Source: Peptococcaceae bacterium
Lineage (GTDB): Bacteria > Bacillota > Desulfitobacteriia > Desulfitobacteriales > Syntrophobotulaceae
Length of the DNA: 64,000 nucleotides
Direction: 5' to 3'
NCBI GenBank assembly: GCA_012517475.1
Contig: JAAYUV010000063.1
Span: 1 to 64,000 of the forward strand
Positions 565-30,440 of this stretch are shown one piece after another; position 1 is the stretch's first letter; each line of letters opens with the position of its first letter. The notes beneath the pieces were generated by a model. The model was not told the origin of the DNA, did no database searches, and was given only the letters and a program-made list of their open reading frames with translations. The position numbers and the translations under genes were made by a program.

Positions 565-1809
565 TTAGTCTTCCTTATTTCTGTCAGACCAAGCCGGGCG
601 TTTATTAAGTTGTTGTTTATCGTTAGTTTTGCTGCTGCGGATATCTTTACTATGCTCTTCGGACCTGTCGTCAGTAGCATCAATTTCTTTTGTCTTACTA
701 TTTTCTTCAGTTATTTTTTTATTAATATTTCCGGATTCATGATCTTCGTCTTCGTCTTTGTCTTTAGCATTGGCAATTTCTTTCTTATCTTCTCCCATTG
801 CCTTTCTTTGTTCTTTCAGAATTTCAAGTTGTTCTTTCTTAACATCGCGCCGGAGTTCCTGGACGTCTTTCTTCAATTGTGCCATCTGATCTCTATACTG
901 CTCTGTTTCCTGAAGCTTGGCCTGTGCGGCCGCAATTGCAGCCTGGTCACCGCTTTGAATAGCCGCTTCAAGTTGCTTTTTCGCTTCGGCAACATTGTGC
1001 ACGGAGTTAACAAATTCTTTTTTGACAGTTACGTAAGCCTTGCTTGCTAAAGTAATCTTAACCTGTGCTTTTATGGAATCAATAATAGCCTGAGACTGTT
1101 CCTGCGGCATGGATCCTGTAATTTTGATTGCTACCTTTTCACCGTCGTTTTGCAAGACTTCAATTTTATCCAAAATAGCGCCGACATTATCGCTGGTTTG
1201 TTCTTGTTCAACTGCTGTTTTACAAATGGTGTTCGCCTTTTCTACCGTACTGATGTAGGCGTGCAGGACCCTGTCCACCAGCTGGCTCTGATTTTTTTCA
1301 TTGATAACCTGAGCCTCAGCCAATCTTTCATTGGCAAATTCAATCAGCAATTCTGCTTTTCCCTCTTGATTAAACGTCAGGGCCAGCTGTACACTTTCGA
1401 TCATTTGTTCAAGGGAGTACAAAAAGCTGTCCGGTGTAATCCCGGCCTCATTTTTTACCTCTTCAGAAACGGGGGTAGTACTGTTTCCGGATGTGTTAGT
1501 AGGATCTGTACCGACAGTGCTACCTGTTGTTGTAGAGGTTGTAGTGTTAGTAGTGTCTGCAGTGGTGTTTGAGGAAGTATCGGTGGTGTTGGTGCTAGTA
1601 TCTGTGGAAGTATTTGTGGAAGTGCCGGTAGAAGTGCTTCCTGTTGAAGTATCTGCAGTGCCTGTGGTGTTTGTTGTACCCGTAGTATCAGTAGTTGTCA
1701 CCGTACCGGATTGATTTGCTTCTGTAGAGGTTTCAGCAAACCCGATTTTGGGAGAAACTGAAAATACTAATAAAGCACAAAACATAATAACAAATATTTT
1801 TTTAATCAT
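565..1809 (-). CDS. Secreted Thr/Ser-rich protein with a DUF5667-like domain
   Basis: The 414-residue protein starts with a Sec signal peptide (MIKKIFVIMFCALLVFS, cleavage near GFAET). Residues about 27-112 are a low-complexity linker of Thr, Ser, Asn, Asp and Gly. Residues about 120-200 (DSFLYSLEQMIESVQLAL and AELLIEFANERLAEAQVI) match the helical DUF5667 pattern of surface proteins. A long coiled-coil-like helix follows, and the C-terminus is highly charged (Lys/Asp/Glu). No catalytic motif is visible. The role is probably structural or at the cell envelope, but this is not known. It has its own terminator, and the neighbour on the left is another exported protein. The start is the first Met before the signal peptide, preceded by GAGTGG. 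Confidence 0.8.
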   Translation of the reverse strand: MIKKIFVIMFCALLVFSVSPKIGFAETSTEANQSGTVTTTDTTGTTNTTGTADTSTGSTSTGTSTNTSTDTSTNTTDTSSNTTADTTNTTTSTTTGSTVGTDPTNTSGNSTTPVSEEVKNEAGITPDSFLYSLEQMIESVQLALTFNQEGKAELLIEFANERLAEAQVINEKNQSQLVDRVLHAYISTVEKANTICKTAVEQEQTSDNVGAILDKIEVLQNDGEKVAIKITGSMPQEQSQAIIDSIKAQVKITLASKAYVTVKKEFVNSVHNVAEAKKQLEAAIQSGDQAAIAAAQAKLQETEQYRDQMAQLKKDVQELRRDVKKEQLEILKEQRKAMGEDKKEIANAKDKDEDEDHESGNINKKITEENSKTKEIDATDDRSEEHSKDIRSSKTNDKQQLNKRPAWSDRNKED

Positions 1810-1827
1810 TTTTCCACTCGCTTTCTT

Positions 1828-1873
1828 AATTTAATTACTACAGAATTCGCAATTTAATTATTACAGAATTCGC
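1828..1873. repeat. Two tandem 23-bp direct repeats
   Basis: Two adjacent 23-bp copies, each starting AATTTAATTA and ending CAGAATTCGC, differ at one base. They lie just upstream of the minus-strand DUF5667 gene, in its probable promoter region. The rest of 1810-2019 shows nothing else recognisable. Confidence 0.85.
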
Positions 1874-2019
1874 AGGCGAATATTTTTTTAGGGTCTAAAG
1901 CTTATGTTCTTACAAAATATTACAATTTGATCCCGCATTAGAGGTTTTTTCTGATTGTATTCAAACAATAAAGACATAAAATTGTGTTACAGGTAATGAT
2001 TTGCTGGTTAAATTTGGAC

Positions 2020-2048
2020 TTGACTATCCTGGATAAATAGGATACATT
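2020..2048 (+). promoter_or_regulatory. Sigma-A promoter with operator-like palindrome for the thi operon
   Basis: The -35 TTGACT (2020-2025) and -10 TACATT (2043-2048) are 17 nt apart. Between and across them is an inverted repeat, TATCCT at 2025-2030 and AGGATA at 2039-2044, separated by 8 nt. The placement suits a repressor that blocks RNA polymerase. The regulator is not identifiable. Confidence 0.6.
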
Positions 2049-2065
2049 TTTGCTAGGTTCATATC

Positions 2066-2119
2066 AGCACAAAATGGGGTACACCACCGAAAGGGTGTAA
2101 TTCTGTTTTGTGCTTTTTT
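2066..2119 (+). terminator. Leader terminator/attenuator hairpin before thiS
   Basis: The outer stem AGCACAAAA (2066-2074) pairs perfectly with TTTTGTGCT (2106-2114) and is followed by six T. Inside its loop a second stem forms, TACACC with GGTGTA. It sits between the promoter and the first gene, so it is either an attenuator or the end of a short leader RNA. The CTGAGA and ACCTGATC elements of a TPP riboswitch are absent. Confidence 0.65.
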
Positions 2120-2139
2120 GTTTGGAAAGGAAGATGAGA

Positions 2140-2334
2140 ATGAAAGTAAACGGCAAATTGATCGTTTTAGAGGAGAAGCAGAGTTTGTCGGATTTTTTGC
2201 AAGCCAACCGCTATGATATCAGGATTATCGCGGTTGAACGCAATGGAGAAATTGTTCCCAAGTCAACTTACAAAGATATTATGCTGACGGATGAGGATAC
2301 GCTGGAAATTGTAAACTTCGTCGGAGGAGGTTGA
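2140..2334 (+). CDS. thiS: Sulfur carrier protein ThiS
   Basis: A small ubiquitin-like protein of 64 residues ending in the Gly-Gly tail (NFVGGG) that is adenylated by ThiF, thiocarboxylated and used by ThiG as sulfur donor for the thiazole ring. The sequence MKVNGKLIV and the internal NGEIVP follow the family pattern. ATG 2140 is preferred to ATG 2134 because GGAAAGG (2124-2130) is then 9 nt away rather than 3. The next gene begins 2 nt after the stop, so translation is probably coupled. It is first in a five-gene thiazole operon. Confidence 0.92.
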   Translation: MKVNGKLIVLEEKQSLSDFLQANRYDIRIIAVERNGEIVPKSTYKDIMLTDEDTLEIVNFVGGG

Positions 2335-2336
2335 TC

Positions 2337-3140
2337 ATGAATTTATGCGTAAATGGGCAAAACAAGGAATTAGATTGTCAGACTGCCTTTGAGGTAAGGA
2401 AACAGATTGGAAACCCGACCGACATTGTTATTCTAAACGGCTTTCAGATCGATGAGGATTGCCCTGTAACCCAAAATGATACGGTAAACATCATACCCAA
2501 GGGGATCATGCCAAAAAGAGAAGACCTTGAAAGCATGATGATGGCCAGGCATACCCCTCATGTTCATGAAAAGGTGAAAAAGGGCAGGGTGGCAATTGCC
2601 GGGCTTGGCGGGCTCGGATCCAATATCGCTGTTATGCTGGCCAGAATCGGTGTGGGACAGCTGCTTTTAGTGGATTTTGATATGGTTGAACCGAGTAACT
2701 TAAACCGCCAGAGTTATTCCATAATCCATCTGGGGATGCCGAAAACTGCCGCTTTAAAAAAACAGATCGAAGAAATAAACCCCTTTATCAAGGTGAAAGT
2801 TCAGACTATCCGCGTAACGGAAAAAAATATTCGGGAACTCTTTAGCGGGTATGACATTATTTGTGAAGCATTTGACAAACCTGAAGCAAAATCCATGCTG
2901 GTGAATACCGCCTTAACGCAGCTGCCTGAGACGAAGATTGTTGCAGCTTCCGGGATGGCCGGGTTTGACAGCTCCAACCGGATTAAGACAGTAAACCCAA
3001 TGAAGAATTTATATCTGTGCGGGGATTTGGAGACCGGGGCTGGAGTTGGAAGGGGTCTTATGGCACCAAGAGTTCAGATTTGTGCCGGACATCAGGCCAA
3101 CATGGTTTTGCGTTTATTAATTGGAATGGAAGAAGTATGA
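2337..3140 (+). CDS. thiF: ThiS adenylyltransferase ThiF with N-terminal ThiS-like domain
   Basis: Residues 1 to about 60 form a ThiS-like beta-grasp module without the Gly-Gly tail. The remainder is an E1-like Rossmann domain with GLGGLGSN for [18 protein letters not shown] (acidic and Arg contacts of the MoeB/ThiF family) and a conserved Cys near the end in VQICAGHQ. The enzyme adenylates the C-terminal Gly of ThiS. This short two-domain form (267 aa) matches the clostridial ThiF family 2. The zinc CxxC pairs of MoeB are absent. GGAGGAGG at 2323-2330 serves ATG 2337; a TTG six bases earlier overlaps the thiS stop and is less likely. Confidence 0.9.
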
Positions 3141-3154
3141 GAGGAGATAAAACA

Positions 3155-3922
3155 ATGAATGATCCATTAATGATTGGCGGGCATACGTTTCAATCAAGAT
3201 TTATCTTAGGCTCGGGAAAGTTTACACTGGAAATCGTGAAAGCGGTTGTTGAAAATGGTGGGGCAGAAATGGTAACTTTGGCACTGAGACGTGCGAACCT
3301 GGGCGGAGAAGAGAATATCCTCGATTATATTCCCAAGGGCATTACCTTATTGCCGAATACTTCCGGAGCAAGAAATGCTGAGGAAGCGGTAAGAATTGCC
3401 CGGTTGGCGAGGGAAATGGAATGCGGCGATTTTGTAAAAGTAGAGGTCATTCGTGATTCCAAGTATCTTTTGCCGGATAATGATGAAACCATTAAAGCAA
3501 CGGAAATCCTGGCCAAAGAAGGCTTTATTGTAATGCCTTATATGTATCCGGATCTATATACAGCCAGAGCCTTGGTTGACGCCGGAGCAGCTGCGGTTAT
3601 GCCCTTGGCTGCTCCCATCGGGAGTAACAAGGGTCTAAGTACAAGGGATTTTATTCAAATCCTGGTGGACGAGATCGACTTGCCAATCATTGTCGATGCC
3701 GGCATAGGACGTCCCTCTCAAGCCTGTGAAGCCATGGAAATGGGCGTCGATGCTATTATGTGCAATACCGCAGTCGCTACGGCAGGAAATGTAGCCCTTA
3801 TGGCCAAATCATTTAAACAGGCCATTGAGGCAGGCCGCGGAGCCTATCTGGCAGGGCCCGGAAGAGTGCTACAAAACCGGGCTGAGGCCTCCAGTCCTTT
3901 GACCGGCTTTTTGGAGGATTAA
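3155..3922 (+). CDS. thiG: Thiazole synthase ThiG
   Basis: A TIM-barrel enzyme of 255 residues that builds the thiazole phosphate ring from deoxyxylulose 5-phosphate, dehydroglycine (from ThiH) and ThiS thiocarboxylate in the cytoplasm. The start FILGSGKF, the Schiff-base Lys region (DFVKVEVI), the phosphate loops ([12 protein letters not shown] and [12 protein letters not shown]) and the tail ASSPLTGFL are typical. ATG 3155 is chosen because GAGGAGA at 3141-3147 is correctly spaced; an in-frame extension upstream overlaps thiF and lacks family similarity. thiH starts 2 nt after the stop. Confidence 0.95.
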
Positions 3923-3924
3923 TC

Positions 3925-5079
3925 ATGGCAATCAATAAACTCAACCACATGGATTATATGGATGGTATGGAAGCGATTGATTCCAATATCATGGACAAAG
4001 TGTTGTATTACGCAGAGGCTTTTGATTACCGGCGGTATACCCGTCAGGATGTGATTGGAGCACTGGCAAAGGATCTGCTTTCCATAGAAGATTATGCCGC
4101 GATTTTATCTCCTGCGGCAATCCCTTTCCTTGAAGAGATGGCCCGCAAGGCGAAACTGGAAACAGCAAAGCATTTTGGCAATTCGGTTTGTTTGTTTACC
4201 CCTTTATATATTGCTAATTATTGTGAAAACCATTGTGTCTACTGCGGTTTTAACTGTACCAATCAAATTCGGAGGGGAAAACTGACTCTGCAGGAAATTG
4301 AAGAAGAGCTTCAGGCGATCGCGTCCACAGGGTTGAAAGAAATTTTGCTTTTAACGGGGGAATCCCGCAAAAAGTCAGGGGTAGAGTATATCGGGGAAGC
4401 AGTCAAGTTAGCAGCGAAATATTTTTCAACCGTCGGTATTGAGATCTATCCGCTTAATACACAGGAATATGCTTATTTGCATGACTGCGGGGCAGACTTT
4501 GTTTCTGTTTATCAGGAAACATATAACCCCAACAAATATGAACAAGTCCATGTAAGAGGTCCCAAAAGGATTTATCCCTACCGTTTCAATGCCCAGGAAC
4601 GCGCTCTCCTTGGGGGAATGCGGGGTGTTGCTTTCGGGGCCCTGTTGGGATTGGATGATTATCGTAAAGACGCGTTTGCAGCCGGTTTGCATGCGTATCT
4701 GATCCAAAAGAAGTACCCGCATGCCGAAATTTCTTTTTCCACCCCGCGCTTAAGACCTTACATTAACAATGCGGAGAATAATCCTCATGATGTTCATGAA
4801 AAACAGCTTTTGCAGGTTATGCTTGCGTATCGTTTATTCATGCCTTATGCAGGGATTACGATTTCAACCAGGGAAAGAGCCGGCTTCCGTGATCATGTGA
4901 TCGGTATGGCAGCCACCAAAATTTCTGCCGGAGTTCGGGTTGGGGTTGGAGGACATAATGAAGAAGAAAAAGGGGATGAGCAATTTCAAATCTCCGACCC
5001 CCGAAGTGTGCAGGAAGTGCATCAAATGATTGTAAACAGGGGGTTGCAGCCTGTCTATACCGATTATATCCGGGTTTAG
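3925..5079 (+). CDS. thiH: 2-iminoacetate synthase ThiH (radical SAM)
   Basis: A radical SAM tyrosine lyase that cleaves tyrosine to 2-iminoacetate (dehydroglycine) and p-cresol for ThiG. The CxxxCxxC motif reads CENHCVYC, after NSVCLFTPLYIANY, as in ThiH. The 384-residue length is near the family norm, with a slightly long N-terminus (MAINKLNHMDYM). Using ThiH rather than the oxygen-dependent ThiO fits an anaerobe. GGAGG at 3914-3918, inside the end of thiG, is the ribosome binding site. Confidence 0.95.
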   Translation: MAINKLNHMDYMDGMEAIDSNIMDKVLYYAEAFDYRRYTRQDVIGALAKDLLSIEDYAAILSPAAIPFLEEMARKAKLETAKHFGNSVCLFTPLYIANYCENHCVYCGFNCTNQIRRGKLTLQEIEEELQAIASTGLKEILLLTGESRKKSGVEYIGEAVKLAAKYFSTVGIEIYPLNTQEYAYLHDCGADFVSVYQETYNPNKYEQVHVRGPKRIYPYRFNAQERALLGGMRGVAFGALLGLDDYRKDAFAAGLHAYLIQKKYPHAEISFSTPRLRPYINNAENNPHDVHEKQLLQVMLAYRLFMPYAGITISTRERAGFRDHVIGMAATKISAGVRVGVGGHNEEEKGDEQFQISDPRSVQEVHQMIVNRGLQPVYTDYIRV

Positions 5080-5089
5080 GAGAACGAAG

Positions 5090-5677
5090 ATGCTGATCTG
5101 CGTAACGAACCGAAAGTTATGTAAAGATGATTTTATCAACCGGATCAATGAAATAGCCAAAGGAAAACCTCATGCTATCCTGTTAAGGGAAAAAGATTTA
5201 GATATATCCCAATACGAAAACTTAGCGAAAAAAGTAAACGAAATCTGTGTCAAAAATCAGGTATTGCTTATTCTTAACCAAAACATTCAAACCGCCGCAA
5301 AGCTGGAGCTTCCATTAATCCATTTATCTATGCCGGATTTACGGAAATACAAAAAGGAAATAAAAATGTTTTCCGGGATAGGCGCTTCGGTTCATTCCGT
5401 TCATGAAGCGAAAGAAGCCCACGAATTGGGAGCTACCTATTTAATAGCCGGACACGTCTTTTCAACGGAATGTAAAAAAGGAGTCCCGCCAAGGGGACTC
5501 ACTTTTATCCAGGAAGTATCTAAAGCAGTTACTGTTCCCGTATTCGGGATTGGCGGAATAACAAAGCATAACTTTCGGGATGTTCTAGATTCCGGGGCCA
5601 GGGGAGTCTGTACCATGAGTGAAGCAATGACTTGTATGAAACCGGCGGAACTTGCAGACAGTTTTATCAGGCGCTGA
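5090..5677 (+). CDS. tenI: Thiazole tautomerase TenI (ThiE/TenI family)
   Basis: A 195-residue barrel of the thiamine phosphate synthase superfamily. It keeps family landmarks such as LREKDL and FGIGGI. At the pyrophosphate-loop position it reads AGHVFSTECKKG, which resembles Bacillus subtilis TenI (GHVFETDCKKG) including its active-site His, rather than the GPVFxTxTK pattern of true ThiE. TenI aromatises the thiazole product of ThiG. Generic annotation would call it thiamine phosphate synthase, and dual activity cannot be excluded. It is last in the operon, 10 nt after thiH, with AGGAGA upstream of the ATG. No thiC, thiD or second thiE lies in this window. Confidence 0.75.
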   Translation: MLICVTNRKLCKDDFINRINEIAKGKPHAILLREKDLDISQYENLAKKVNEICVKNQVLLILNQNIQTAAKLELPLIHLSMPDLRKYKKEIKMFSGIGASVHSVHEAKEAHELGATYLIAGHVFSTECKKGVPPRGLTFIQEVSKAVTVPVFGIGGITKHNFRDVLDSGARGVCTMSEAMTCMKPAELADSFIRR

Positions 5678-5751: not shown

Positions 5752-7743
5752 TTATGAATCGATTTTACTTAACTTTCTATAAAGCGTACTTCTGGCCATC
5801 CCTAATTCTTCAGCTACCAAGCTTTTATTCCCCTTATATTTGAACATAAGATATTTAATCATGTCCTTTTCTTGTTGTTCATAACTGTCGTAAAAGTTAA
5901 TGTCCTGAACAATCGGCATGTTGTTCTGTGGACTTTTATGGAATGTGTCGCCGGAATAATTTAACCGAATGTCCTTAGGTAAATCTTCAATGGTTATAAC
6001 CCCGGACTTTGCAAGATTGACGCTAAATTCTATTACGTTGCGCAGTTCTCTGACATTACCGGGCCAGGAATACTGCTCCAGCAGCCGTAAGGCCTCGGGA
6101 GAAACGGCATAAACATCTTTGTTAAATGATCTGGAAAAAGAACTTAAAAAATAATTAATCAATATTGGAATATCATCTTTGCGATTTCTTAAGGAAAGGA
6201 GTTCCAGTTTTATGACATTTAATCTGTAATAGAGGTCAAGTCTAAATTTCTTTTCCTGCACATATTCAGATAAATTACGATTTGTAGCAGCAATGATACG
6301 AACATCGCACTCAGTTGTTTTTGTGCTTCCTAAACGGGTAACCTTATGCTCTTCTAAAACCCTTAAAAGAACAGACTGCATATCTAAGGGCATTTCGGCA
6401 ATCTCATCAAGAAAAAGCGTTCCGCAGTTAGCAAGTTCAAACTTTCCGGCAGAACCGCCTTTTTTCGCGCCCGTGAAAGCGCCTTCAACATAACCGAAAA
6501 GTTCACTTCCGATTAATTCTTTGGGAATAGCAGCACAGTTCAGTGCAATAAAAGGATACTTTCTTCGTGGACTTTCATTATGGATTGCCTGAGCGAAAAG
6601 CTCCTTGCCTGTGCCGCTTTCACCGAAAAGCAATATGTTGCTTGGACTTTGCGCTGCTTGTTTGGCCAGAGCTTTGAGTGACAGAAAATCAGGACTATTT
6701 CCAATTAAATCATCAAAAGAATAGTGTGCATTATCATTTACGAGATTACCGAGATATTTGGTAATTCTTTTTTTGTTAACCAGTGTAATGACCATTCCAA
6801 TACAACTATTATTCTTGATAATAGGGGTAGAGTCCATGAGATAATCTTTTGGTCCTGAAGTCGGACGCTGAAAACTTATGTCTACCATAGATAATGGTTT
6901 CTGAGTTTTTAATGAAGATAAAGACATTTTAAGTTCAGGAAAAACGTTGCTAAGCGATTTTCCAAGACAATGCTGAGAATTAACATTTAATGTATTTGTT
7001 AAAGCTTCATTGATGTCCAGGATTATTCCATTCGCATCAACAATGAGAAACAGCGATTGATTATTTTGGATGTTCAGGTTTATAATTTCGTTTTTAATAG
7101 AGATGTCTTCCGGATCAACATAACTCATATGAAATAACTCTGAAGAATATATATAATCTAAAACAGAAATGGTTAAAGCATGATAATTGCTTAGAGGAAG
7201 GATAAAAACCTGGATAAGTTCAGTATTCAGGTATCTGATTTCAGCTGAGAAGGCAACGCTGACATATTCCGTCAAAGCTTCGCAATAGTGTTCTTCTCCT
7301 ATTACACATTCAAGACCCTGTTGTTGACTTGCTAATACTGCAGCGTTTGTTCCCATTAATGATTCTGAAAAGGTAGTTCCGAATTTTATGCCTTTGCTTT
7401 TCAATTCCTTTAATAATCTTTGGTTCCCGGCCTTATTAAAAACCGACATATTCGTATCGAGATAAAAAATGGCTGCTCCGATTTGATCTATCAGATCATT
7501 TTTTTTATTATAATAATTAAGATTCCTTTCTAACCGGTAACGGGTGATATCATTAATCCGGTCTAAAGTTTTACGGTCAATACATTCGGATGGGAAGCTT
7601 TTGATGTTAATATTTATATTATTATTTCGAGAACGAAGCCAAGAATCTAAAACAGGTTTATATATTTCTTTATCATTAATTTGATCTCCGCAGATTAAAG
7701 CCTGTTTATACTTATTAATGGTTTCCTGGTTGCATACTCTCAT
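5752..7743 (-). CDS. Sigma-54-dependent activator, AcoR type (GAF-PAS-AAA+-Fis)
   Basis: A 663-residue enhancer-binding protein. Residues about 1-200 match the AcoR-like sensor with a GAF core (FGTTFSESLMGTNAA). A PAS-like segment covers about 228-330 (LFLIVDANGIILDINEA). The AAA+ domain spans about 340-570 with Walker A GESGTGKE (374-381), the sigma-54 contact loop GAFTGA (421-426), and FLDEIAEM. A Fis-type helix-turn-helix ends the protein (GNKSLVAEELGMARSTLYRK). It is divergent from the hydrolase gene at 7958, which has a sigma-54 promoter, so that gene is the likely target. The ligand sensed by GAF/PAS is unknown. Confidence 0.93.
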   Translation of the reverse strand: MRVCNQETINKYKQALICGDQINDKEIYKPVLDSWLRSRNNNININIKSFPSECIDRKTLDRINDITRYRLERNLNYYNKKNDLIDQIGAAIFYLDTNMSVFNKAGNQRLLKELKSKGIKFGTTFSESLMGTNAAVLASQQQGLECVIGEEHYCEALTEYVSVAFSAEIRYLNTELIQVFILPLSNYHALTISVLDYIYSSELFHMSYVDPEDISIKNEIINLNIQNNQSLFLIVDANGIILDINEALTNTLNVNSQHCLGKSLSNVFPELKMSLSSLKTQKPLSMVDISFQRPTSGPKDYLMDSTPIIKNNSCIGMVITLVNKKRITKYLGNLVNDNAHYSFDDLIGNSPDFLSLKALAKQAAQSPSNILLFGESGTGKELFAQAIHNESPRRKYPFIALNCAAIPKELIGSELFGYVEGAFTGAKKGGSAGKFELANCGTLFLDEIAEMPLDMQSVLLRVLEEHKVTRLGSTKTTECDVRIIAATNRNLSEYVQEKKFRLDLYYRLNVIKLELLSLRNRKDDIPILINYFLSSFSRSFNKDVYAVSPEALRLLEQYSWPGNVRELRNVIEFSVNLAKSGVITIEDLPKDIRLNYSGDTFHKSPQNNMPIVQDINFYDSYEQQEKDMIKYLMFKYKGNKSLVAEELGMARSTLYRKLSKIDS

Positions 7744-10126: not shown

Positions 10127-11395
10127 CTAATTATATCGCCGCGCGCCAAGATAGCGGGAAGAGTAATAACCGTCGCTAAGACTGGTTATGGTAACATCCA
10201 AACGGGGGTTATCGGCATGAACAAAACGTCCTCCGCCAATATAAATGCCTACATGGGATGCGCCTTTGGCATACGTTGTGAAGAATACCAAATCCCCGGG
10301 CCGGAGCTCACTCCTGCTTACAGCTGTTCCTGAAGCGAATTGGGCGAAGGATGTCCGGGGAAGGGTTATACCTGAATGAGCAAAGACATACTTGGTATAC
10401 CCTGAACAATCAAACCCGGTTTTGGACATTCCTCCAAAAACGTAAGGGGTTCCCACTAAACTTTTGGCGAATTCGACCAGGCTTGAAGAATCCGCGCTTC
10501 CCTGAGAGCTTTCACTGCCGCTGTCCGCGCTTGATCCCCTTGAAGCCACTTCAATTGTTCTTGAGGGGCCTTTGGCAATGACTTGCGTAACAGCCGCGGT
10601 GAGAATCTGCTCGTTTACAACCTGTTTTTTTACGTCAACGCCATTTTTTTGCTCGTAAGAGTAATTTACTAATTTTGAACCGTTACTTCCTTCGGTGACC
10701 ACTTTTTTCTGACCGGCTCCCAGACCGGAATCAACGCGGGTGACCGTGTCATAGGGGATGGTTTCTGTTTGAGAAAATGTTCCCGAACTGATTACAGTCA
10801 GATATGGGGTTACACTGACCAGTTTAATTATTTGTCCTGGTTCCAGTTTTGAATCTTCTGTGGCTCCCGGATTACCTGCCAATACTTCCTTTGTCTGCAT
10901 GTCCGATTTACGGGCAATCAGCCACCAGGAGTCATTGGCTTGGACAGTGTAATCCTTGGAAGTTGTCTTTCCGGCAATGAGCATTTGTAAGACTTGCTCC
11001 GGCTGTTGAATTTGAGAAAGCGGAACTTCAGTTTTTTGACTGGTAACTTTTTCGGAAAAAGCAACGGAAGCAACTTGATTTTGTTCACTCGGTTTGGTGT
11101 AATAATCCTGATACTCTTTAAGGATTTGGTCTACAGCCTCTTGTGTGGGCAGATAAGCTATAATTGAGCCGTCAATTTCTAACGTATAGGCTTCTTTGAC
11201 GCTTCCTCCCGCCATAGGAGAATTCGCTGTGTTGACCGCTTTGGCAGGGCTTGAAGAAAAAGCGTAAATTGTTCCTGATAGTAATAACATCAATACCAGT
11301 AAACAACCGAGAACCGGCGGTGAACTCCAGGATATCTTTTTAAGGCAGCCCTGGATAAACAAGCCGGTTCGTTTTAGTTTTTGAGGCAGATTCAT
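10127..11395 (-). CDS. LysM-G5-NlpC/P60 cell-wall hydrolase under c-di-AMP control
   Basis: A 422-residue envelope protein with an N-terminal membrane segment (about 28-47). An extracellular segment follows that resembles the region before LysM in YabE/SpoIID-like wall enzymes. Then come a LysM domain (about 148-192, YTVQANDSWWLIARK), a G5 domain (about 205-275), a Ser-rich linker and an NlpC/P60 domain with C330 in FDCSGY and His in ASHVGIYIG. It is expected to bind glycan and cleave stem peptides during wall growth. The gene follows a c-di-AMP riboswitch directly; the ribosome binding site AGGTG lies only a few bases past the aptamer. Confidence 0.93.
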   Translation of the reverse strand: MNLPQKLKRTGLFIQGCLKKISWSSPPVLGCLLVLMLLLSGTIYAFSSSPAKAVNTANSPMAGGSVKEAYTLEIDGSIIAYLPTQEAVDQILKEYQDYYTKPSEQNQVASVAFSEKVTSQKTEVPLSQIQQPEQVLQMLIAGKTTSKDYTVQANDSWWLIARKSDMQTKEVLAGNPGATEDSKLEPGQIIKLVSVTPYLTVISSGTFSQTETIPYDTVTRVDSGLGAGQKKVVTEGSNGSKLVNYSYEQKNGVDVKKQVVNEQILTAAVTQVIAKGPSRTIEVASRGSSADSGSESSQGSADSSSLVEFAKSLVGTPYVFGGMSKTGFDCSGYTKYVFAHSGITLPRTSFAQFASGTAVSRSELRPGDLVFFTTYAKGASHVGIYIGGGRFVHADNPRLDVTITSLSDGYYSSRYLGARRYN

Positions 11396-11411
11396 ATTCT
11401 TTTCACCTTTC

Positions 11412-11532
11412 TTAAGCTTACGAGGTTAGTTGACGGATTCGGGCAAAAAGGTTAAGCCCTACGCGAAAGAATCGCGATTCACCCCATAAAAAAGAGTCCC
11501 CCGCTCTAGATAACACTAGATTCAGCTTTATT
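11412..11532 (-). ncRNA. Cyclic di-AMP riboswitch (ydaO-yuaA class)
   Basis: On the minus strand the segment contains the class landmarks in order: GCTGAATCTAG, GAGCGGGGGACTC, GGGGTGAATCGCG, GTAGGGCTTAACC, CCGAATCCGTCAACTAACC and TCGTAAGCTT, with P1 formed by AAGC and GCTT. It sits in the leader of a LysM-NlpC/P60 hydrolase, a known target type. No terminator stem is seen between P1 and the start codon, which is about 16 nt away, so control may act on ribosome access. Confidence 0.95.
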
Positions 11533-11591
11533 TTGTGTCTTATATCTTATTCGACGGCGAGTCTAAATGTCCTGTTACATGGAAATGGAAA

Positions 11592-30024: not shown

Positions 30025-30069
30025 AAAAAGACACCGTAAACTAAGGCAAGTTCACTTAATTACCTCCTT

Positions 30070-30186
30070 CAACGCTTGCGAGGTTAGCTGGCGGATTCGG
30101 GTCGAATGGATTAACCCTACACTTGCGTGATTCACCCCTGCTTTGTAAAGCAATTGGGTCCCCCGTTCCAAAGATTCAGCGTTTGA
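30070..30186 (-). ncRNA. Cyclic di-AMP riboswitch (ydaO-yuaA class)
   Basis: The minus strand shows CGCTGAATC, GGAACGGGGGACCC, GCAGGGGTGAATCACGC, GTAGGGTTAATCC, CCCGAATCCGCCAGCTAACC and CTCGCAAGCGTT. P1 is AACGC with GCGTT. It precedes the KimA-like gene, the archetypal target of this class. Confidence 0.96.
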
Positions 30187-30440
30187 CTCTATTTGAATAT
30201 ACAAATATTATCCCGATCTTTGCAAAAAGTATAGGCTGATTTTAGGCAATCCATCGGCTAAATAGCTGGATAATATTTTATCTATACGAGAAAAATTGAC
30301 AAGAATCAGCAAAGCTTTTAATTTCTTTCTATATCTTGAAATTGCTCAAATAGAATTAACCTTTTAATTATGAAATAATATATGGCTAAATTCCCAGAAT
30401 ATTAGGAATAATGGCACTTTCGATAGTATGATGTATTCAT

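Follow-up and report, generated by a model that had tools for sequence, protein, structure and literature searches.

The thiS motif has been described as a terminator located before thiS and provided with a conserved tip (PMC6429828), and was later shown to bind HMP-PP and to work as an ON switch (PMC6478431). As described, the terminator of class members has a strong stem and runs into at least six U; members also carry strictly conserved G24-27 and C35 residues at the tip, and sit upstream of HET-P genes, among which thiS, thiE and thiW. In the second account nucleotides are numbered from the transcription start, termination occurs near 66 nt, and the ON state includes a P1 stem; HMP-PP binding and raised read-through are those published for a Clostridium sp. 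Maddingley RNA (PMC6478431). About 30% of the published cases are in tandem, the TPP riboswitch coming first and the thiS motif second. Guanidine-IV riboswitches and the HRC-8-4 motif are similarly terminator-embedded, with a conserved tip, and accompany other genes (PMC8632094); they are likened to the thiS motif by description only. The TPP riboswitch (RF00059), a larger aptamer for another ligand, also precedes thiamin genes in the genome studied here, but is absent from the leader under discussion.

That leader precedes a thiSFGH-tenI operon (Table 1) in the window, i.e. the whole stretch of 64,000 nucleotides that was analysed. We hold with strong confidence, on the ground of the published description and of a covariance model of our own (R1), that it is an HMP-PP riboswitch of the thiS-motif type, an ON switch standing alone with no TPP riboswitch in front. 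The sensor has very probably been described already, and the leader would be an unremarkable representative of it that was missed by RNA-family search. It shares with the class (PMC6429828, PMC6478431) an aptamer set within an intrinsic terminator, the conserved tip, the four G before P2, a loop C at the published distance from the G residues, the place before thiS and a host belonging to Firmicutes; a length of about 66 nt is shared as well, if transcription starts near 2053. It differs in the lower stem, shorter than that of the published RNA, in lacking AGAGUG, a detectable P1 and a tandem TPP riboswitch, and in the loop (ACCGAAAG, 8 nt), which is 2 nt longer than the common type. Among the 119 matches listed, the variable loop site has two letters, hence a 6-nt loop, in 104, and four letters in 13.

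Table 1. Position of promoter, leader elements and thi genes in the window
Feature	Position	Strand	Details
Sigma-70-type promoter	2020-2048	+	-35 TTGACT 2020-2025, spacer 17, -10 TACATT 2043-2048; 9/12 consensus matches
thiS motif (very probable HMP-PP riboswitch)	2060-2126	+	covariance-model extent; R1, full model 1-64
Lower terminator stem, 5' arm	2066-2075	+	AGCACAAAAU; read from sequence and folding
Conserved GGGG	2076-2079	+	equated with published G24-27; partner is the terminator or, per the published model, the loop (pseudoknot)
P2 hairpin	2080-2099	+	UACACC 2080-2085; loop 2086-2093; GGUGUA 2094-2099; C2087 taken as C35
AUUCUG	2100-2105	+	between P2 and terminator 3' arm
Terminator 3' arm and U-run	2106-2119	+	UUUUGUGCU 2106-2114, then U-run 2114-2119; from sequence and folding
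Purine-rich ribosome binding site	2124-2133	+	GGAAAGGAAG; read from sequence
thiS, sulfur carrier	2140-2334	+	TIGR01683 72.6 bits (cut-off 37.45); start 2134 also possible
thiF, ThiS adenylyltransferase	2337-3140	+	NF006395 301.7 bits (cut-off 159); TIGR02354 287.4 bits (cut-off 152.2)
thiG, thiazole synthase	3155-3922	+	PF05690 339.7 bits
thiH, 2-iminoacetate synthase	3925-5079	+	TIGR02351 516.3 bits (cut-off 380)
tenI-like gene (thiazole tautomerase type)	5090-5677	+	best NCBIfam TenI 125.7 bits (below cut-off 251); thiE 113.2 bits (below cut-off 145.1)

The hairpin, the promoter and the absence of a TPP riboswitch

The terminator-like hairpin spans 2066-2114 and runs into six T, with an inner stem starting at 2080; stem and U6 together occupy 2066-2119, and one A is bulged. 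The fold energy of the segment 2064-2123 is -24.5 kcal/mol, versus -11.3 +/- 2.8 in 200 dinucleotide shuffles (z -4.8), none of which was as stable, and the nested hairpin terminator pointed out ahead of thiS by the earlier note is borne out. Truncated RNAs may adopt an alternative fold pairing GCAC with GUGU, seen in folding only. The distance between GGGG and C2087 equals the published one. If transcription starts at 2053, GGGG corresponds to G24-27, C2087 to C35, and termination near 66 nt to U62-67; these absolute numbers hang on the assumed start. Other published numbers do not match, the stem starting at nt 14 here versus nt 10, and the U46-49 residues being A-U-U-C after the 2-nt longer loop. 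The numbering supports assignment to the HMP-PP class, though the fit was partly chosen through the start at 2053.

Promoter-like sites scoring as the one upstream of the leader number 2 in the interval 1500-3000, versus 3.4 expected, so that the site taken alone is not significant; TTGAC is present within 75 nt upstream of the core in 13 of the 15 long-loop relatives examined. The transcription start was placed at about 2053, 5 nt past the -10 box, in order to fit the published numbering.

A perfect 6-bp inverted repeat, TATCCT-N8-AGGATA, does overlap the promoter at 2025-2044, and the earlier note had envisaged a repressor bound to this dyad, over the spacer and the -10 box, with attenuation taking place downstream. 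The repeat exists, but its role as operator was rejected. The window contains 267 inverted repeats of 6 bp with spacers of 3-12 nt, or one every 239 nt, and 219 of 5000 local shuffles of 2020-2048 hold one. The arms are broken in a congener (L005, genome G056), which retains the hairpin, and half-sites were found within 75 nt upstream of the core in none of the 15 relatives examined out of the 19 other long-loop rows. With a dyad so close to chance expectation and not conserved, we regard control by such a repressor as extremely unlikely.

The leader had also been claimed to lack a TPP riboswitch, and it does: none was detected in the window by a gathering-threshold Rfam scan, nor in 1850-2250 by a permissive covariance-model scan at E<=10. 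Weak Rfam matches of the latter scan, to DUF3800-I, shuA thermoregulator and RMST_10 (E 2.8-8.3), lie far under the gathering scores and were dismissed as due to chance. Any significant Rfam hit in the leader had been named in advance as evidence against a novel control; there is none, but this silence is uninformative, because all of eight motif-bearing loci, Clostridium carboxidivorans (L103) included, also drew no thiS-type match at E<=0.1 in Rfam 15. Release 15 presumably holds no fitting thiS-type model.

Other elements of the window were noted in passing. A sigma-54-dependent regulator (5752-7743, minus strand), whose best NCBIfam models, PrdR and DhaR, both score below cut-off, is convergent to the thi operon. 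A divergent ORF (565-1809, minus strand) features a long threonine/serine-rich stretch and fits no NCBIfam family above cut-off. Two c-di-AMP riboswitches (RF00379) reside on the minus strand at 11400-11537 (102.4 bits) and 30058-30191 (85.8 bits), the former just upstream of an ORF (10127-11395, minus strand) which by reading encodes a putative cell-wall hydrolase.

Distribution and conservation of the motif

The core was gathered from at least 119 contigs in a scan of named contigs, and from relatives. Among the 119 matches listed, 117 are followed by a T-run. In 113 a thi gene starts within 500 nt, and all 113 have the T-run; two more (L078 and L116) precede thiW, while in L096 and L128 the sequence ends 33 and 133 nt beyond the motif, respectively. 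The two matches without T-run, L070 and L134, are probably due to chance and were left out of alignments. In L078 a TPP riboswitch lies upstream of the motif, in the same order as published, and at least five other tandem cases were spotted among the 119 matches listed by a regular expression which misses L078, versus the published share of about 30%. In L078 (4120-4370, minus strand, Clostridium aestuarii) the TPP riboswitch and the motif are followed by a gene for an MTH1187-like thiamine-binding family protein (below cut-off) and by thiW. The association with thiS, thiW and tenI/thiE, as well as the order of TPP riboswitch and motif, agree with the published accounts of the class (PMC6478431, PMC6429828).

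Model R1 is our own and not the published one. It was built from 108 short-loop loci, 104 from the scan and 4 from the order, reduced to 71 sequences by dropping near-copies and loci cut short, and sequences of the window type were left out. Run on the window, R1 gave three matches: the leader ranked first (49.9 bits, E=3.3e-10), and the second-best match had E=0.23. R1 was then applied to 23 further sources; the 14 long-loop loci and the congener locus L005 were recovered with E<=1.5e-5, and the remaining eight sources yielded no match at E<=1. With stricter filters, at which weak matches are lost, R1 matched 12 of the 73 genomes of the order and 16 of the 398 genomes of the phylum. The latter figure falls to 13 once three matches from one genus (L180, L181 and L182; E 6e-5 to 7e-4) are removed as probably false: they are strong, plain terminators with CCCACGAAGGG, devoid of the CACCACC core, and no thi protein was found nearby. 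Among the 398 genomes the exact long-loop core is present only in that of the window, and the R1 scan adds L178 and L179, two long-loop loci whose cores differ from it. Among relatives of the order found by means of the thiF gene, the exact core occurs at 10 loci, window included.

The search pattern did not include the lower stem, for which 86.3% of the cells show pairing. Cells changed on both sides are 136, versus 46.5 +/- 8.2 in shuffles, and the covariation score is 0.385, versus 0.174 in shuffles (none of 500 as high) and up to 0.131 in slid controls, though relatedness can inflate these scores. All eight pairs change on both sides, but the same was reached by 84 of 500 shuffles. In rows selected by pattern P2 is invariant by construction, and conservation of the core in those rows is no evidence. 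In loci found by the model the first P2 pair is U-A, G-C (L167), C-G (L174 and L175) or A-U (L178), and U/C are mispaired in L179. Among the model-found loci, L167, L172, L174, L176, L178 and L179 keep CACCACC while P2 pairs vary; P2 is further changed in L175. In the congener locus L005 (1045-1107) the first P2 pair is G-C rather than U-A, a compensated change.

The strong hairpin with its U6 would fit an ordinary, unregulated terminator before thiS. Yet, the tip has been kept far beyond the needs of termination, as witnessed by the exact core at the 10 loci of the order, and CACCACC survives in model-found loci where P2 pairs vary. That the leader is such a plain terminator is hardly credible.

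The long-loop relatives of the leader

In 20 long-loop rows the sequence of the lower stem itself appears to be kept: 12 of them carry AGCACAAAAT, without any change, as their 10-nt lower arm, and the majority fraction along the arm is 0.88, versus 0.55 in the preceding 20 nt. AGAGTG is missing in all of 18 long-loop rows, and is present in 67 of 103 short-loop rows outside the ThiG group of the window. Its absence marks the ThiG group rather than the long loop, because it is also missing in six of the eight short-loop rows of the same group, and found in two.

The search for P1 covered rows with a T-run and 36 nt of upstream sequence. For the 15 long-loop rows belonging to the ThiG group of the window, the mean length of the best 5' helix is 3.4 bp, versus 3.44 bp in shuffles, and three of the 15 rows, the window among them, reach 5 bp, the window no better than its shuffles. 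In 103 ordinary rows the mean is 5.0 bp, versus 3.92 bp in shuffles; the measure is weak, as 40 of the 103 lack a 5-bp helix and only 17 exceed their respective shuffles at the 5% level. At 2046-2075 the RNA can form a hairpin of 12 pairs and two bulges (-4.8 kcal/mol, z -0.7). It was not relied on as P1: transcription would have to begin earlier than expected, the 5' strand overlaps the -10 box, and L005 has only a 4-bp match at the corresponding place.

A tree of ThiG proteins was drawn from the 112 rows whose ThiG match reached 200 or more, with bootstrap not settled and one genome (G069) appearing twice. In this tree 17 long-loop and nine short-loop rows, two of the nine from a single genome, fall into a supported group of 26 (97/97), whose hosts belong to several families. 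The pattern suggests that operons have moved together with their switch.

The HMP-PP riboswitches may include a separate branch, so far undescribed, of which the window is a member. We advance this tentatively, and rate it as doubtful. Such a branch would lack AGAGUG and a P1 antiterminator, and in most members the loop would be ACCGAAAG and the lower stem (AGCACAAAAU/UUUUGUGCU) would be kept in sequence, and not in pairing alone; the switch would consist of P2 and pseudoknot only, the fixed A-rich arm would be part of the ligand pocket, and operon and switch would have spread between Clostridiaceae, Bacillaceae, Acetobacterium, Desulfosporosinus and the family of the window. No description of a long-loop branch was found in the literature searched, and its members may be among the 400 aligned in one of the published studies (PMC6478431). 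If the branch is truly devoid of P1, it would provide a useful reduced system to learn how an aptamer embedded in a terminator beats its own terminator.

The same traits, namely the loop longer by 2 nt, the missing AGAGUG and the undetectable P1, could be read as signs of a related aptamer, likewise embedded in a terminator but specific for another ligand, or of a thiS-motif variant whose ligand has changed in the long-loop group. The same genes follow, however, thiS being downstream in all of the 19 other long-loop rows; long- and short-loop rows are mixed in one ThiG group, which speaks against a changed ligand; and the guanidine-IV class (PMC8632094) is alike only in architecture, as judged by description. 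A different ligand is very unlikely, and for the window copy we infer HMP-PP as ligand, ON as the direction of switching, and the start site given above.

TPP and HMP-PP as probable separate signals in one genome

The genome carries one copy of the thiS-motif core, and elsewhere two TPP riboswitches above cut-off, one before thiC, the other before thiD-cytX-thiM-thiE. The main thiE (225 bits) thus sits in a TPP-controlled operon. Judging from its sequence, the last gene of the thiS operon looks more like a TenI-type gene than the main thiE: the thiE model yields 112.6 bits for it, versus 225.4 bits for the contig C26 gene.

At low HMP-PP the nascent RNA would fold into the single terminator hairpin followed by U6, and transcription would end before thiS. 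At high HMP-PP the ligand would bind the tip during a pause of RNA polymerase in the U-run; this tip consists of P2, GGGG and the loop CC, probably arranged as a pseudoknot. With HMP-PP bound, GGGG and the lower arm could no longer complete the terminator, and the operon from thiS to tenI would be transcribed. The genes behind the two TPP riboswitches serve in the synthesis, import or use of HMP-PP, so that a fall in TPP should be followed by a rise in HMP-PP. A shortage of TPP would open the pyrimidine arm, and the build-up of HMP-PP would then open the matching thiazole arm.

The earlier note had proposed a different thiamine-responsive control. The terminator in the leader probably does exert control, but is best explained by the published HMP-PP riboswitch, whose ligand is a precursor of thiamin and not thiamin itself; a supposedly new control is replaced by a known one. 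In practical terms, pipelines based on Rfam 15 may leave such leaders unexplained, none of the eight motif loci having drawn a thiS-type match. The arrangement suggests a division in which the pyrimidine arm is gated by TPP and the thiazole arm by HMP-PP, and we infer that the published two-input gate is here split over separate operons. This would be a genome in which TPP and HMP-PP switches probably act apart, one per arm.
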